A DNA stretch of 64,000 nucleotides. Origin: Planctomycetia bacterium. Lineage in GTDB: Bacteria; Planctomycetota; Planctomycetia; Pirellulales; PNKZ01. The notes beneath the pieces are model-generated. The model did no database searches. It was not told where the DNA came from and worked only from the letters and a program-made list of their open reading frames with translations. Position 1 is the first letter of the stretch. Every line of letters starts with the position of its first letter. The stretch covers positions 1 through 64,000 of the forward strand of contig JAIOPP010000008.1 of the NCBI GenBank assembly GCA_021413845.1. Direction: 5' to 3'. The translations under genes were made by a program, and so were the position numbers. Positions 4,906 to 63,681 of this stretch are shown here, one piece after another.

Positions 4906-6102
4906 ATGATGAGTTTGCCACGCGCACCCCAGCTTTCGCCACACCGCTTAGCGCCGGCAGCTTTTACGCTGCTGGGCCTCCTGCTGCTGGGACTCGTGCT
5001 GTCGTGTCTTGCGGCATCGCCGGCTGCGGCGATGGACCGGGTTCGTATGAAGCGCGAAGGGATCGAGCAGGAGCTCGTCGGCCGTGTGATCGAGAAAGCG
5101 GAAGACGGCGGGCTTCTGTTCGAAACGCGTGAAGGAACTCTTTGGACCGTGCCGCCGGAAGAGCAGCTCGGCACCTCGAACGATTCCGAACCGTTTGCGC
5201 CGTACCCTGCGGACAAGCTTGCCGAGTTGATGCTCAAGGAGCTTCCGCCGGGCTTCGAGACGTACCAGACCAAGCACTACCTGATCTGCTTCAACACCTC
5301 ACGCGCCTATGCGCAGTGGTGCGGAAGCTTGTTCGAGCGCCTCTATCAGGGCTTCGGCAACTATTGGAGCAACCGTGGTTTCGAGCCACGAGATTCCGAT
5401 CGGTTGTTGGTCGCGGTCGTGTTTGCCGATCGGACGTCGTATGCTCGTTATGCGCGGCGCGAGCTCGGCGACGGAGTCGATTCGATCATCGGCTACTACA
5501 GCCTCAAGACCGATCGAATGACGATGTACGACCTGACCGGCACGGCCGGCACGACGGGCGAGCGCGGTTCGGCGGCGCAGATCACGCAGACGCTGTCGCG
5601 GCCCGAGGCGTTTAAGACCGTCGCGACGATCGTCCACGAAGCGACGCATCAGATCGTGTTCAACTGCGGCATGCATCGCCGTTACGCGGACATACCGCTT
5701 TGGCTCAGCGAAGGGATGGCCGTGTACTTCGAGTCGCCCGACCTCGACGGCGGCAACAAAGGCTGGCGCACGATCGGGAAGGTCAACACGCCCCGGCTGC
5801 TCGCCTTTCGCCAATACCTTAGAACGCGCCCGAAAGATTCGTTGGCGTCGTTGTTGAAGGAAGACGCTCGGATGCGCAATCCGCAACTCGCGGGCAACGC
5901 CTACGCCGAAGCCTGGGCCTTGAACTACTTCCTCATCAACGTGAAAGCGAAGCAGTATCAAGAATACATGCAGGTGCTCGCCAAGAAGACACCGCTCGTC
6001 TGGGACACACCGGAAGCACGCCTAGCGCAGTTCGAGCAATCGTTCGGCAGTCTCGACGCGCTGGATAAAGAATTCGTGCGGTATATGCAGCGTTTGAAAT
6101 AG
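4906..6102 (+). CDS. DUF1570 domain protein, secreted gluzincin-like
   Basis: The 398-residue protein begins with a signal sequence or membrane anchor (hydrophobic stretch at about residues 16-42, ending AAA). The C-terminal two thirds match the planctomycete DUF1570 family. They contain VATIVHEATHQIVF, an HExxH zinc-peptidase signature, followed about 20 residues later by PLWLSEGMAVYFE, which supplies the usual third-ligand helix (W-x-x-E-G). It is therefore probably an extracytoplasmic metallopeptidase of gluzincin type. Substrate is unknown. Two ATGs in tandem (4906, 4909) are possible starts. The gene is transcribed alone, divergent from the HEAT gene. A cluster of palindromic repeats follows its stop. 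Confidence 0.85.
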   Translation: MMSLPRAPQLSPHRLAPAAFTLLGLLLLGLVLSCLAASPAAAMDRVRMKREGIEQELVGRVIEKAEDGGLLFETREGTLWTVPPEEQLGTSNDSEPFAPYPADKLAELMLKELPPGFETYQTKHYLICFNTSRAYAQWCGSLFERLYQGFGNYWSNRGFEPRDSDRLLVAVVFADRTSYARYARRELGDGVDSIIGYYSLKTDRMTMYDLTGTAGTTGERGSAAQITQTLSRPEAFKTVATIVHEATHQIVFNCGMHRRYADIPLWLSEGMAVYFESPDLDGGNKGWRTIGKVNTPRLLAFRQYLRTRPKDSLASLLKEDARMRNPQLAGNAYAEAWALNYFLINVKAKQYQEYMQVLAKKTPLVWDTPEARLAQFEQSFGSLDALDKEFVRYMQRLK

Positions 6103-6103
6103 G

Positions 6104-6131
6104 GGTCAGGGGGCGGAGGTCAGGGGGCAGT
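6104..6131. repeat. GGTCAG-type short direct repeats
   Basis: Two imperfect copies of GGTCAGGGGGC(A/G)G occur directly after the DUF1570 stop codon. Related GGTCAG/ACCGACC strings recur near 13148-13182, 34978-35034 and 56805-56832, always between genes. Confidence 0.6.
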
Positions 6132-6142
6132 TTAGGAAAGTA

Positions 6143-6167
6143 GTAGGCACGTTCCACGTGCCGTAAC
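6143..6167. repeat. REP-like palindrome, GGCACGT-TCC-ACGTGCC
   Basis: A perfect 7-bp stem (6146-6152 with 6156-6162) around a 3-base loop, inside the frame TAGGCAC...GTGCCGTA. The same 17-base core recurs exactly at 36473-36489, 30 kb away and also at gene ends. Confidence 0.75.
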
Positions 6168-6258
6168 CACGTGTCGTACGGAAGCGCCGCAAGAGATCGC
6201 ATCTCGCTCGTCAAGTACGCGAGATCGACGATCGGTCGTCATCGCGATGCCCATCGGC

Positions 6259-6310
6259 TACGGCACGCGGAGCGTGCCTGCAACGTTGTAGGCACGCTCC
6301 GCGTGCCGTA
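6259..6310. repeat. REP-like doublet in inverted orientation
   Basis: Two 25-base arms, 6259-6283 and 6286-6310, are inverted repeats of each other with one mismatch and only 2 bases between them. Each arm is itself palindromic (GGCACGC-GGA-GCGTGCC). The unit is the same family as 6143-6167 and 36607-36635. This arrangement resembles the paired REP units (BIME) of other bacteria. No REP-associated transposase is visible in the window. Confidence 0.75.
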
Positions 6311-6322
6311 ACTGACCACTGG

Positions 6323-7861
6323 TCACCGACCACCGGCCACTACTACCCCAGCAACGTCTGCTCGACGCGGCGGAGCGCTTCGTCGAAGCGGCATCTTCCG
6401 CCGACCGTGGGCAAGGCTTCGTCCGAGGCGAGCGGGGTGCCGTAAGGCCCCCGGTAACATCGAAGCGGCAACCCGCGGCGCGATGCGTGAAACGCTCGGC
6501 ATCCGCTGCGTCGGCTGAGGCTCTATCCCAGCAACGTCTGCTCGACGCGCCGTAGCGCTTCTTCGAAGGGCGAGTGCCCGATCGATCGGTTGGCGGAAGG
6601 CGTGCGCGGCGGCCAACAGTCGCTTGAGCGCGCCGTTCAACTCGCGGGCATGGCAGGAGAAGTTGGCGGCGATGAACTCGCGCACGTCGTCGGCAAGCGT
6701 CATCCCGAGCTTCGCGGCCATCCGGCCGGTGATGCCGAGCCGCGTTTGCATGTCGGGCGTTTCGATGCCGACGACCAGTCCGCCGGCGATGCGGTTGCGC
6801 AACTCAGGGCCGAGGAACCCGAGGTCGGCCGGCGGGCGATCTGCCGCGAACACGATCTGTCGCCCGTCGTGCTGGATGGCGTCGAACGTATGGACGAGCT
6901 CGACGAGCGTGGCCCGTTTGCCGGCGAGGAATTGCAGATCGTCGATGATCAACAGATGCAGACCGCGGAACTTACGGCGGAAGCTCGGCAGGCCGGTGCC
7001 GTGCAGCGAGTCGAGGAACGACGTCGTGAACTGTTCGGCGGAGAGTAGCGCGGTCTGGGCATCGGGATGGCGACGACGAACGTCCGCGATCATCGCTTCG
7101 AGCAGATGCGTCTTTCCGACACCCGTCGGTCCATGCACGACGAGCGGCGAAATGCTGCCGAGCCGTTCGGCACAACCGAGCGTCGAGGCATACGCCAACC
7201 GATTGGACGAGCCGACGACGAACTCGTCGAATTGTGCGAGGCGGCGCGGCGCGGTCGGACGTTGCGGCTTCGCAGGTGTAGCGATGTTCGCTACCGCGTG
7301 GTCGGTGCTGGGCGACGGCGGCACGGCCACCGCATCCTCGGCGATGTTGCGCATCAGTCGGGCAGCGGCCCGTTCCGCAAGATCGCCGATCGCCGTGCGA
7401 GCGAGGTCCGGATCGCGGCCGTCGATCGGGCGAGCGCCGCTCGTCGACGCAGCCGGGTTCCCTTCCGACAAGAAGCCGGTGAAGGAATGCTGTACGAACT
7501 TGGGGTGAGATTCTTCGGCCGGCTTCGCGGCATCGACGGGCTTCGCTGCCTTGCCGTGTTTGCCGGGCTTGGCCGTCGCGTCGCTCCGGCGGTTCGCCAA
7601 CTGCTTATCGACTTCGAACGCGACCGAGATTTGCGGCCCGATCGTTTCGCGAGCGGCCGCTTCGAGATGCGCTCGGAAATTGTTACGGAGCCAATCTTGG
7701 AGAAACGTATTCGCGGTCGACACGATGAGCCGGTCGCCGTCGATTCGGAAGCCGGTCGACGAAGCGAACCACATGTCGTACCGCTCGGCACCGACGCGCT
7801 CGGCGAGCGCATGGCGTAGTGCGGACACGATCTCCTTATCGTCGATGGTCACTTCCTGCAT
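6323..7861 (-). CDS. dnaA: DnaA-like replication initiator, domain IV missing and frame disturbed near the C-terminus
   Basis: DnaA binds ATP and the origin to start replication. Here the N-terminal domain I is present (VGAERYDMWFASSTGFRI), then a variable linker. The AAA+ domain III follows with Walker A GPTGVGKTHLLEA, Walker B LLIIDDLQFL, and the end-of-domain-III motif HARELNGALKRLLAAA. After HAFRQPI (about residue 425) the usual DNA-binding domain IV of about 90 residues is absent. The annotated frame continues as an unrelated arginine-rich tail. In the +1 frame, the same DNA instead reads HSPFEEALRRVEQTLLG and stops at 6523, which resembles the usual extreme C-terminus of planctomycete DnaA. 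A tandem ATCGATCG sits at the point of frame change. The gene is thus likely broken or misassembled. No second dnaA is in the window. Confidence 0.75.
   Translation of the reverse strand: MQEVTIDDKEIVSALRHALAERVGAERYDMWFASSTGFRIDGDRLIVSTANTFLQDWLRNNFRAHLEAAARETIGPQISVAFEVDKQLANRRSDATAKPGKHGKAAKPVDAAKPAEESHPKFVQHSFTGFLSEGNPAASTSGARPIDGRDPDLARTAIGDLAERAAARLMRNIAEDAVAVPPSPSTDHAVANIATPAKPQRPTAPRRLAQFDEFVVGSSNRLAYASTLGCAERLGSISPLVVHGPTGVGKTHLLEAMIADVRRRHPDAQTALLSAEQFTTSFLDSLHGTGLPSFRRKFRGLHLLIIDDLQFLAGKRATLVELVHTFDAIQHDGRQIVFAADRPPADLGFLGPELRNRIAGGLVVGIETPDMQTRLGITGRMAAKLGMTLADDVREFIAANFSCHARELNGALKRLLAAAHAFRQPIDRALALRRSATARRADVAGIEPQPTQRMPSVSRIAPRVAASMLPGALRHPARLGRSLAHGRRKMPLRRSAPPRRADVAGVVVAGGR
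6343..6391 (-). repeat. Second copy of the dnaA 3' end
   Basis: These bases, read on the minus strand, encode CRFDEALRRVEQTLLG followed by TAG. They are about 85-90 percent identical to 6523-6570, which encode FEEALRRVEQTLLG and TAG. The two stop codons are exactly 180 bases apart, so both tails lie in one frame, and that frame differs from the long dnaA ORF. Confidence 0.75.
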
Positions 7862-8497
7862 TCCCCTAGCGCCTCATGCTTGGAACGAATCCCAGTCGAA
7901 CCGGTTGCCCGAGGTCCGAAGCATCCGGCTCGTCGTACGAATCTTGCGTAGCGACGAACGGAGTCTTTCGGCTCGAGGCGGTGCTGCACGCTCTCCGCGC
8001 GCAGACCGACCTCCGGAATCGAACTTGGTTACCGCGTCTTGCTCCTCAAACCATCCGGCTCACGACCGCGGCAAACATCGTCCAACGAGGGCGTACGATA
8101 TCGGCTCGGCAGGGAGAGTGCGAAGCGTCTGCTTTCGAGACAGAGGCAGCTTCGAGGCATCACGCGCAAAACCGTTAAAGTCAATGCTTTGCGTAATGTT
8201 TTTCGAAGTCTTCGCTCGCACTTCGGTTGTCACCCGAGGAAGGGATTGTACGCCTGCCGGCACCGCTGTCAAAGCGCTAGACCCAGGCCGGCCGAGCGAT
8301 CGCGAGAACGAAAATATTCGGGCCCGTTTTTCCCGGCGGATCAAGCAACCCGTCGCGCAATCCGACGGAAAAATTTTCTTTCCATCAGCATCGACGACCG
8401 CGTGGAAAACGTGTCGGGTCGAAGCCTTGCGATTTCATCGTTCGCGCGGCGAGGAATTCGCAAAGGCTTAGCCCTCCGCGAGTTGCCGATTCACGAG
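7862..8497. other. Intergenic region upstream of dnaA-like gene, 636 bp
   Basis: This region lies between the minus-strand dnaA-like gene and the GNAT gene, so it should hold the dnaA promoter. I looked for TTATCCACA-type DnaA boxes and AT-rich unwinding tracts and found no consensus box, so I do not call an origin. No supported ORF was seen. Confidence 0.5.
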
Positions 8498-9481
8498 TCA
8501 GTTTTCGGTCGGGGTCGTGAGCGGCTTGATAAAAGCAGTGCGCTTTTCCCAAGGCAAAAACCCGACCCGCTCGTAGGCTTCGGCGGCGGGCAGATTCGTC
8601 GAATCGACGGCCAACACAACCCGCGCACGACCGATACTCGCGGCGATGCGTAAACTTTCTCGCGCGACGACGGCCCCCCAAGCTCGGCCGCGCGCCTCGG
8701 GCACTAAGCCCATGTACACCAACTCGACTTGGTCTTGCTCGGCATGCTCGGCCAAGATGAGGCAGCCGACGTCGCGGCCGTCGTTCACGACGAACCGCCA
8801 CAACCGCGAGCCGCCGACGCCGGCGACTTCATATTCGTCGAGCATCTCGCGGCCGGTGCGCAGACCGTTGAGGGCCGGGCAATCGAGCGTGTCGACGTAC
8901 GATCGCTCGACGATGCCGGCCATGCGTGTGCGCTCCGTCTCGTTGTCGACGAACGCTTCGAAAACGATCGGCGAATCGCTTTCGCCGGCGAGCGCTGGAT
9001 CGACGTCGATCGTCTCGCCGACTAAGTAGGTGAGTTCGGCGAGGTGCAGGAAGCCGGCCGCGCGGAGTGCTTCGGCCTCGCCGCAATCGCCGGAGATCAG
9101 CAAGCTCTGCGCAAGCGTACAGCCGCGCGCGGCGAGCGCTGCCGTCAGTTTATCGAGCAGCGCAATGGAAAGCTCCGGCGAGGTCGGAGTCGCCGTTGTG
9201 GAGACCTCGCCCGCGCTGCGCCATTGCGGCGGCCACACGAGCGCCGCGCCGCCGGGACGCAGCTGCCCCCAAGCCGCGCCGACGGTCGCGCCGGCGTCGT
9301 CGGCGACTCGCCACAACTCACCCCAGCCGGCCGGATCGGTTTCTGCTTCCAGTAGCGTAGCCGGCATCAGAACCTCGGCCGCGTCGTTCGGAAGTCCGCA
9401 TAAGACGAGCCCTAAAGCTTCTTTCAAGAGGCTCCGCTTCAGTTCCGGGCCGAGGCGCTCGATAGAATAAGATGGGTGCAT
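8498..9481 (-). CDS. GNAT family N-acetyltransferase, two-domain
   Basis: A 327-residue cytoplasmic protein. The second half (about residues 170-320) is a GNAT fold with the acetyl-CoA pyrophosphate-binding segment VYMGLVPEARGRAWGAVV, followed by LAVDSTNLPAAEAYERVGF, the usual beta5 and helix region. The first half (about residues 20-150) looks like a weaker, diverged GNAT repeat (AALAARGCTLAQSLL, EALRAAGF), an architecture seen in mycothiol-synthase-like proteins. Function beyond acyl transfer cannot be assigned. The gene is divergent from the PDZ gene, with 105 bases between starts. The start ATG at 9481 is the first in frame. Confidence 0.85.
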   Translation of the reverse strand: MHPSYSIERLGPELKRSLLKEALGLVLCGLPNDAAEVLMPATLLEAETDPAGWGELWRVADDAGATVGAAWGQLRPGGAALVWPPQWRSAGEVSTTATPTSPELSIALLDKLTAALAARGCTLAQSLLISGDCGEAEALRAAGFLHLAELTYLVGETIDVDPALAGESDSPIVFEAFVDNETERTRMAGIVERSYVDTLDCPALNGLRTGREMLDEYEVAGVGGSRLWRFVVNDGRDVGCLILAEHAEQDQVELVYMGLVPEARGRAWGAVVARESLRIAASIGRARVVLAVDSTNLPAAEAYERVGFLPWEKRTAFIKPLTTPTEN

Positions 9482-9586
9482 AACCGGCAGGATACGCGAT
9501 TTCTTCCCAGTCGTCAGGGTCGGTGCCTATAATCGGGTCGCTTCACGAGTTGTTTTAACACCGTCGCTCGTCTTCAAGAGGCAGTT

Positions 9587-11038
9587 ATGTCGCTGCGAAC
9601 TTTTTCGGGTCTGTTGCTGTTAGCCGTTGCCGGCACCACCGGCGTCGCCGACGCTCAGCAAGCGCTGGAGAATCTCGAAAAGCAACTCGCGCAACCTCCC
9701 GTGGAAACCGCAGCGGCGGAAGAGCCGGGCTACTTGGGGATCATCGCCGACGATCGTGAAACCCAAGGACGGGGTATCCGCTTAATCGATGTCTTAACTT
9801 CCGGCCCTGCCGCCAAGGCCGGTCTGCAGACAGGCGACACCATTACGAGCATCGACGGCGTGGCCGTGAAATCCCTCGACGACATGGCGAAGGTCATGGT
9901 CGGGCGGATCGTCGGCGAAGAAGTTTCGTTCGTAGCGACGCGCGGCATCGAGGCCGTGCGGGTCGATGTCGTGCTAACGCGACGTCCGCCTCCGGAAGAA
10001 CGCCGCTTCAACAACTTCGGGCGGATCGGCGATCCGACCACCGAGATCATCACGCCGAACGACATTCCGCCGACCGTCGTGAAAACCGCGCCGCAAGCCT
10101 CGCGCATCGTGCCGGGAGTGATGCCTGCCGTTCCGGCGCGAGGCATTCCCCATCCGAGTGCGCCGGGCGTACCTTCGGCCGATGCGCTTCCTCCGCCGGA
10201 AGTCATCTCCAACATTCCGCAAGCCCAACGCCCGAGCGTTGCGCCGCCGATCGCCGTGGCGAGCCGCCTCGGACATTCCGGCGCTCCGACCACGATTCAA
10301 GCCACGCCCGCCATCCCTCCGGCGAACACTTTGCGACCGGGGACGCCGCTCACGATCGATCCGAATTCTCCGGCTGCCGCGGCACTGCGAACCGGCTTGC
10401 TCGGCATCCGCACGACGCGCGTCACGCCTGAGTTGCAACTGGCGATGAACTTGCCCGAGCCGCGCGGTGCGCTGGTGATCGAAGTTCGTCCCGACTCACC
10501 GGCGAAGTTCGCCGGCATTCCGATCGACGCCGTGATCGTGGCTGCCGATGCGAAGCGGATCGACGGCCCGAACGATCTCTCGAATCTCGTTGCCGAGCGT
10601 GGCCCTGGAGCCGAAGTTCGGCTGTCGTACTATCGCTACGGGCAACTGTATGAGAAGACGGTGAAGTTGCTCGCGCCGCCGCCGGTCGTGGTGGCCGATG
10701 TCGTGGCCGGCGATCCGAGCTTAGCTCCGAAACTCGCTCCGAAAGCAGTCGAAGTTCCCGGCCCCGGGCCCGGCAGAATGGAGCCGTCGTTCGGCCTGCC
10801 GCCGACGACCGTTCCCACGGCCGTAGCGCCCCCTTCGACGAAGCCCTCGCCGACGACCCTTCCGCCGATCGCACCTTCGACGCCCGCAACGGGCCCGACG
10901 CTCGCGCCGGTGTCCGCACCGACGGTTGCCAAAGCACCGACCTCGGAATCGGAAGCGGCACAGATTCGCAAACAGATCCGTGATCTCGAAGCGCAGTTGA
11001 AGGCGCTCGAGAAACGCTTGCCGCCGGAAACGAAATAG
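9587..11038 (+). CDS. Secreted protein with two PDZ domains
   Basis: The 483-residue protein has a signal peptide (about residues 1-24, cleavage after ADA) and AGAGG six bases before the ATG. PDZ domain 1 spans about residues 45-130 (GYLGIIADD, AAKAGLQTGDTITSIDGVAV). PDZ domain 2 spans about residues 268-355 (LGIRTTRVTP, SPAKFAGIPIDAVIVAAD). Between and after them are proline-rich linkers, and the last 30 residues form a charged coiled-coil-like helix (IRKQIRDLEAQLKALEKRL). No protease domain is present, so it is not a DegP protease but a periplasmic adaptor-like protein. It is followed immediately by a small membrane protein gene, suggesting an operon. Confidence 0.85.
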   Translation: MSLRTFSGLLLLAVAGTTGVADAQQALENLEKQLAQPPVETAAAEEPGYLGIIADDRETQGRGIRLIDVLTSGPAAKAGLQTGDTITSIDGVAVKSLDDMAKVMVGRIVGEEVSFVATRGIEAVRVDVVLTRRPPPEERRFNNFGRIGDPTTEIITPNDIPPTVVKTAPQASRIVPGVMPAVPARGIPHPSAPGVPSADALPPPEVISNIPQAQRPSVAPPIAVASRLGHSGAPTTIQATPAIPPANTLRPGTPLTIDPNSPAAAALRTGLLGIRTTRVTPELQLAMNLPEPRGALVIEVRPDSPAKFAGIPIDAVIVAADAKRIDGPNDLSNLVAERGPGAEVRLSYYRYGQLYEKTVKLLAPPPVVVADVVAGDPSLAPKLAPKAVEVPGPGPGRMEPSFGLPPTTVPTAVAPPSTKPSPTTLPPIAPSTPATGPTLAPVSAPTVAKAPTSESEAAQIRKQIRDLEAQLKALEKRLPPETK

Positions 11039-63255: not shown

Positions 63256-63297
63256 ATGACTAATGACTAATGACTAATGACTAATGACTAATGACTA
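63256..63297. repeat. Six tandem ATGACTA 7-mers
   Basis: Six perfect consecutive copies of ATGACTA lie between the cysNC start and the four-helix-bundle stop. The last copy supplies the stop codon of the four-helix-bundle gene (CTA at 63295-63297 is TAG on the minus strand). Confidence 0.9.
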
Positions 63298-63681
63298 ATC
63301 GGATTTTGGGTTCTTTGGCGGGTTTTTGCGGTAGATCGCTACGAAGATCAGATGTAGTTCTTTGGCTTCGCTCCATAATTCGCGGCAATCTTCTTTGTGT
63401 TCCGGTTCCGCCGTGGCGAGCATTCGGAGCCAGTATTTCGTTTCTCGTGCTTCTCTCTTGCAGACGCTGATGCGATATCTGAATTCCTTGTTCGAGCCTG
63501 CGTCGTCCGCCTCGCAATAATTTGCTCCGATACTCGTTGCACATCGGACAAGCTGGCGGATCAGCGGATCTGTAATCGAATGAAACGGTAAGCGGCGCAA
63601 AAATCGAATGACCGCCTTACCGAATTTCGCGGTTCGTTCTTCGAGATCGAATCGTTTCGATTCCGCATCCAAAGGAACCAC
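63295..63681 (-). CDS. Four helix bundle protein (bIVSP / S23 family)
   Basis: A 128-residue all-helical protein starting at a GTG at 63681. Family-typical segments are FGKAVIRFLRRLPFHSITDPLIRQLVRCATSIGANYCEAD (key parts QLVRCATSIGANYCEA) and FRYRISVCKREARETKYWL (key part KREARETKYWL). This family includes proteins encoded in rRNA intervening sequences, and it is related to Avd of diversity-generating retroelements. It binds nucleic acids in some members; role here unknown. It lies between cysD and cysNC and is bounded by ATGACTA-like repeats, which suggests an inserted unit. Confidence 0.88.
   Translation of the reverse strand: MVPLDAESKRFDLEERTAKFGKAVIRFLRRLPFHSITDPLIRQLVRCATSIGANYCEADDAGSNKEFRYRISVCKREARETKYWLRMLATAEPEHKEDCRELWSEAKELHLIFVAIYRKNPPKNPKSD

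Follow-up and report, generated by a model that had tools for sequence, protein, structure and literature searches.

In excerpts of PMC5448010, Hda is described as a protein composed of a clamp-binding motif and an AAA+ domain. Excerpts of PMC7198777 report that dnaA is absent or not essential in some cyanobacteria and that free-living bacteria can manage without dnaA. The dnaA gene analysed here resembles Hda/HdaA in that its product has a DnaA-type AAA+ domain without domain IV. In the titles and abstract openings of the open-licence papers listed on planctomycete, dual and domain-IV-less DnaA and on chlamydial DnaA paralogs, we did not find the arrangement of this locus.

The gene lies in a 64,000-nucleotide stretch of DNA from a Planctomycetia bacterium, which was analysed as a whole and is called the window below. 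Its genome (G000) was compared within a set of 117 genomes of the same order, one per species. If the contig is right, the locus is a natural deletion of domain IV that disabled the long, widely kept member of two DnaA paralogs, and the other, adjacent to dnaN and gyrB, stays.

Domain content of the window gene

The minus-strand ORF 7861-6323(-) encodes 512 aa with DnaA domains I and III and without domain IV. In Pfam searches with the window protein, DnaA_N (domain I) scored 36.7 bits and Bac_DnaA (AAA+ domain III) 139.1 bits, above their cut-offs of 24.6 and 23, respectively. Bac_DnaA_C (domain IV, which binds DnaA boxes) was not one of the 19 families that reached E<=1. This domain content agrees with an earlier note on this DNA, made from the letters alone. 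The NCBIfam model TIGR00362 (DnaA, chromosomal replication initiator) gave 246.4 bits, under its whole-protein cut-off of 343.9. The features of the locus are as follows:

4906..6102, plus strand: DUF1570 gene, convergent neighbour, conserved and intact
6137..6315, no strand assigned: further palindromic repeats in an enlarged downstream intergenic region, including 6137-6167 and 6254-6315
6323..6568, minus strand: out-of-frame end of the long ORF, 81 residues rich in arginine, without a coding-like profile
6343..6432, minus strand: end of the native linker and tail copy 2 (ending in SDEALPTVGGRCRFDEALRRVEQTLLG and a stop codon), the original 3' end; its first codons overlap the right end of the repeat
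6421..6469, minus strand: dispersed REP-like repeat, here ACCGGGGGCCTTACGGCACCCCGCTCGCCTCGGA; its right end abuts the surviving native linker
6470..6522, minus strand: 53-nt segment after the stop of tail copy 1, matches inside at chance level (own-genome DNA search)
6523..6568, minus strand: tail copy 1 (FEEALRRVEQTLLG and a stop codon), fused out of frame to domain III at 6569/6568
6569..7861, minus strand: collinear coding part of the long DnaA paralog with domain I, variable domain II and AAA+ domain III, ending in ...QPIDRALA
6581..6588, minus strand: tandem ATCGATCG, in frame within collinear domain III, P-I-D codons, 12 nt before the break
6770..7234, minus strand: Bac_DnaA AAA+ core with Walker A (GPTGVGKT) and Walker B (IIDD), read by eye
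7649..7816, minus strand: DnaA_N (domain I), the sole DnaA_N match in G000
8498..9481, minus strand: GNAT acetyltransferase gene, upstream neighbour, conserved and intact

The orthologs of three genomes of the same genus, L005 (G003), L006 (G001) and L007 (G002), matched the window in tblastn searches from 7861/7867 to 6569 with 55-57% identity; in domain III their identity to the window protein was 72, 72 and 71%. The remainder of the long ORF was read in the earlier note as arginine-rich nonsense, and its codon composition bears this out: GC by codon position was.78/.68/.56 in the last 81 residues versus.69/.49/.80 in the first 1293 nt, a profile that is not coding-like. The open frame of this 81-residue end is weak evidence, because 34% of random 81-codon frames in the window were open (n=20,000).

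Position of the break and extent of the missing segment

The break lies at 6569/6568; here domain III runs into a copy of the gene's own tail that is out of frame. From 6568 on the sequence reads CTTCGAAGAAGCG..., with which the conserved tail starts, shifted by one frame. The two sides of the domain III/tail junction share the sequence GCC (3 nt). In L005 the Hda_lid match, which is just under the Pfam cut-off, ends at residue 389, and the collinear part of the window protein ends at the equivalent of residue 386. The loss begins right at the end of the AAA+ lid and covers domain IV completely. About 308 nt are missing in L007 coordinates; this number is 2 mod 3 and the frame therefore changes. 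Thus a joined deletion, one of two routes put forward in the earlier note, explains the absence of domain IV.

The other route, slippage at the tandem ATCGATCG in an otherwise normal DnaA, has a practically negligible probability. The motif lies only 12 nt before the break, which speaks for slippage, but the frame does not switch at the motif, as had been claimed; the motif lies within collinear domain III and supplies its P-I-D codons. The same codons read CCGATCGATC in L007, CCGATCGAT in L006 and CCGCTCGATC in L008 of the same family. Two of the three same-genus orthologs (L006, L007) carry ATCGAT in frame at this site in intact genes, L005 being outside the searched pattern. Moreover, a 4-nt change is unable to remove about 308 nt. 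Programmed frameshifting was provisionally rejected as a candidate, since no slippery heptamer was seen by eye at the join.

Tail copies, linker and repeats

A normal DnaA tail in another frame, as noted before, was found, and it occurs twice, at 6523-6568 and 6343-6388. The two copies are 46 nt each and 91% identical. The linker before tail copy 2 is native-looking, with SDEALPTVGGRCRF where L007 has SDEAIPTAGGRCRF, and linker and tail copy 2 share 66% identity with the G003 ortholog over 29 residues. Tail copy 2 (6343-6388) is the original gene end, about 180 nt beyond the interval 6523-6600 of the earlier note. Read in the tail frame, all four differences between the tail copies are third-position changes (probability 0.011 for random placement), as if both copies had evolved as coding tails, a pattern that a simple recent duplication would not predict.

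A search of the own genome with 6390-6600 gave 44 matches at E<=10, of which 29 lay on the repeat (assigned by eye), 16 of these with E<0.001. Apart from the window and one partial row, the 18 repeat rows examined come from 12 different contexts. The exact repeat core ACGGGGGCCTnACGGCACCCCGCTCGCC was present in 6 of the 12 contexts, the other 6 vary in the stem, and the window differs by one base. Within the 53-nt segment 6470-6522 the best internal match of the own-genome DNA search had an E of 0.029, which is chance level; one repeat match (E 2e-4) extends 13 nt into this segment. The right end of the repeat meets the linker exactly where native coding sequence restarts. Read most simply, this arrangement reflects a rearrangement associated with the repeat and involving two or more junctions.

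Between the window dnaA and the DUF1570 gene lie 240 nt, compared with 87-89 nt in G001-G003. Palindromic repeats (6137-6167, 6254-6315 and 6421-6469) are clustered downstream of the window dnaA. At 63256-63299 the window also holds a perfect tandem array of ATGACTA with 6.3 copies.

State of the remaining domains

At near-invariant positions of domain III the window protein showed 2 departures, compared with 0-4 in 29 orthologs and 1, 0 and 0 in the three orthologs of the same genus. The path from the common fork, summed by hand, was 0.19 for the window versus about 0.20 for L007, 0.16 for L005 and 0.18 for L006; in this branch comparison the SHORT_G002 row was set aside and SHORT_G077 was left out. 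The grouping of the short paralogs was not used, because their branches are very long. Neither the near-invariant positions nor the branch paths clearly revealed decay of domain III. The absence of clear decay means a recent event, a truncated protein in use or a wrong contig. By themselves, the intact motifs may fit a truncated protein in use as well as a recent loss.

Distribution among relatives

Matches with the window protein were obtained in 116 of the 117 genomes, among the matches listed and with at most 14 candidates scored per genome. Long-type domain IV was searched for with 130 residues of the G003 ortholog (lid end, domain IV and tail), counting matches with E<=2.3e-16 that reached residue 122 or beyond. 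Such a match was present in 110 genomes, on the contig of the long domain III, among the matches listed. The two weakest, G112 and G116, come from frames of 633 and 675 aa and were for this reason assigned to the long type.

Seven genomes had no long-type domain IV: G000, G068, G032, G035, G041, G067 and G102. G068 was rejected as a second truncated case, since its 8956-nt contig ends inside the long dnaA gene. The remaining five (G032, G035, G041, G067, G102) had short-type or no matches with the window protein, among the matches listed. Three of them (G035, G041, G067) reach only 73-83% completeness, and a second Bac_DnaA match of G035 is outside the matches listed. For G102 and G032 completeness is rated at 93% and 97%, so that their lack of a detected long DnaA paralog may reflect natural loss.

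The long paralog was judged present in 112 of 117 genomes and had kept domain IV in 110 of these 112, among the matches listed, with G000 and G068 as exceptions. Its presence in 112 of 117 genomes implies that its loss should be costly, which counts against the reading favoured below. Within this set of one genome per species the truncation appears private to G000; a family of relatives with the same truncated product, for which the earlier note had left room, was not found in the set, the gene of G068 being cut by the contig end. G001-G003 share the gene order around the long dnaA over about 11 kb, each neighbour being intact in a single frame, and the synteny comparison proposed in the earlier note thus placed the window gene at the true ortholog position. 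A scan of other genome contigs, from which same-genome records may be omitted, gave 5 loci with a best segment of 49% identity and no second assembly of the same species.

Bac_DnaA_C occurs two or more times in 98 of the 117 genomes. DnaA_N matches occurred in 79 of 117 genomes; 78 of these have a single match and G002 has two, the additional one on contig C258. Apart from G109, where the match is on a different contig, DnaA_N shares its contig with the long paralog.

The short DnaA paralog and the origin

G000 has two Bac_DnaA matches and one Bac_DnaA_C match, the latter on contig C146, in a second dnaA gene:

contig C146 (L123), 5008-6198: short DnaA with AAA+ domain and domain IV, no DnaA_N match

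It is followed by dnaN (6545-7660) and gyrB (8152-10764), both confirmed with Pfam in G000. A search for a full-length dnaA elsewhere, which the earlier note had proposed, thus recovered another DnaA with domain IV, on C146, and no full-length copy in the assembly. Nor did the genome search find that domain IV had moved elsewhere in G000; a weak match on C149 had an E of 0.199. With TIGR00362 the short DnaA of G000 scored 236.7 bits, under the cut-off of 343.9. The long ortholog of G003 reached it with 348 bits and that of G002 was just under it with 339.4. By this score the long paralog looks like standard DnaA, which counts against its reading as an accessory gene.

Near the short DnaA of several relatives, starts of gyrB-like and partly of dnaN-like sequences were seen by eye (L127 in G003, L059 in G077, L083 in G080, L122/L103 in G022). 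In each genome inspected in detail, DnaA_N gave no match in the DnaA at the likely origin, and the sole DnaA carrying domain I is encoded elsewhere.

The short paralogs of G000, G002, G003 and G022 carry RDHTT as their domain IV signature; a signature of this type was not found by pattern in the short paralogs of G077 and G080. The 29 long orthologs (L005-L033) have RSHST (21), RSHTT (4) or other signatures (4), with no D there as read by eye. RSHST/RSHTT in 25 of 29 long orthologs versus RDHTT in four short paralogs suggests that the DNA target may have changed.

GC skew was sampled in 20 stretches of each of three one-contig genomes (G077, G022, G080), with placements of the origin at 50-kb steps. 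Placing the origin at the short paralog gave a skew contrast of 0.0442 for G077 and 0.0441 for G022, the highest value among the placements tried, versus -0.0327 and -0.0311 with the long paralog as origin. The contrast of G080 was weak (short 0.0094 versus long 0.0020), with the best value of 0.0161 about 0.2 Mb away. In the one-contig relatives sampled, the long paralog is located apart from the origin. A record start at the short paralog proves nothing by itself, because authors may rotate a chromosome record to dnaA, as an excerpt of PMC13315336 indicates. Taken from the skew of the relatives and the dnaN/gyrB context, the short paralog is likely the origin initiator.

Discussion

In our view this locus is probably explained by a real rearrangement in which an accessory DnaA paralog lost its full function. 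The other dnaA, at the likely origin, keeps domain IV, and the window gene is therefore more probably a damaged accessory copy than a novel type of regulator. The loss of full function was probably recent. The starting gene was the long DnaA paralog of the order, with domains I-II-III-IV and the conserved tail. A local rearrangement, possibly by recombination, would have removed the AAA+ lid end and domain IV and joined domain III via the 3 nt GCC to an out-of-frame copy of its own tail. The dispersed REP-like repeat now occupies the site of the former domain IV end and borders immediately on the native linker and tail. The predicted product has domain I and the ATPase core, no DNA binding through domain IV, and 81 meaningless end residues. 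The cell may tolerate this loss because the short DnaA beside dnaN/gyrB can act as origin initiator.

An assembly or amplification artefact, in which the contig is chimeric or strain-mixed and the organism has the full-length gene, is less probable but has to be taken seriously. The assembly is a draft of 167 contigs and lacks a full-length copy of a gene whose domain IV is kept by 110 of 112 holders (among the matches listed), a dispersed repeat lies between the tail copies, and the two 91% identical tails with four of four differences at third codon positions are as expected for two strains. On the other hand, the roughly 3 nt shared at the domain III/tail junction would be too little for an assembler word overlap, the missing domain IV is on no other contig, the sole Bac_DnaA_C lying in the other paralog, and the neighbouring genes are intact.

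The ATPase-only DnaA regulator of the earlier note, a functional truncated protein acting on the other DnaA as partner or regulator via AAA+ contacts and domain I, seems unlikely to us. Its domain I and ATPase motifs are present without clear decay, and it holds the genome's only DnaA_N match; but no second genome in the set has the truncation, collinearity breaks off at the lid end, which is lost, the C-terminal residues are read out of frame and lack a coding-like profile, and the Hda model TIGR03420 scored 90.7 bits, under its cut-off of 194.8. We regard as more doubtful still a split initiator, in which one polypeptide with domain I and AAA+ (helicase/partner contacts) and another with AAA+ and domain IV (origin binding) would form one mixed AAA+ filament.

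Compared with the long paralog of the order, represented by the G003 ortholog L005, the window gene has the same locus, neighbours, domain I, AAA+ core and C-terminal tail. However, L005 has domain IV (signature FFGGRSHSTVISA) and a single in-frame tail, and the window gene has neither. The short DnaA of C146 has a related AAA+ core with 34% identity to the window protein over the matched part; it has domain IV (signature FFGGRDHTTILHS) and no DnaA_N match, whereas the window protein shows the reverse. Hda differs from the window protein, which has domain I and lacks the lid end. An Hda-type N-terminus would place a clamp-binding motif directly before the AAA+ domain, without domain I, but the N-terminus of the window protein is domain I, and no clamp-type motif was seen by eye in its first 20 residues. 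In contrast to the cyanobacteria in which dnaA was lost or is unneeded, G000 retains a second DnaA with domain IV.
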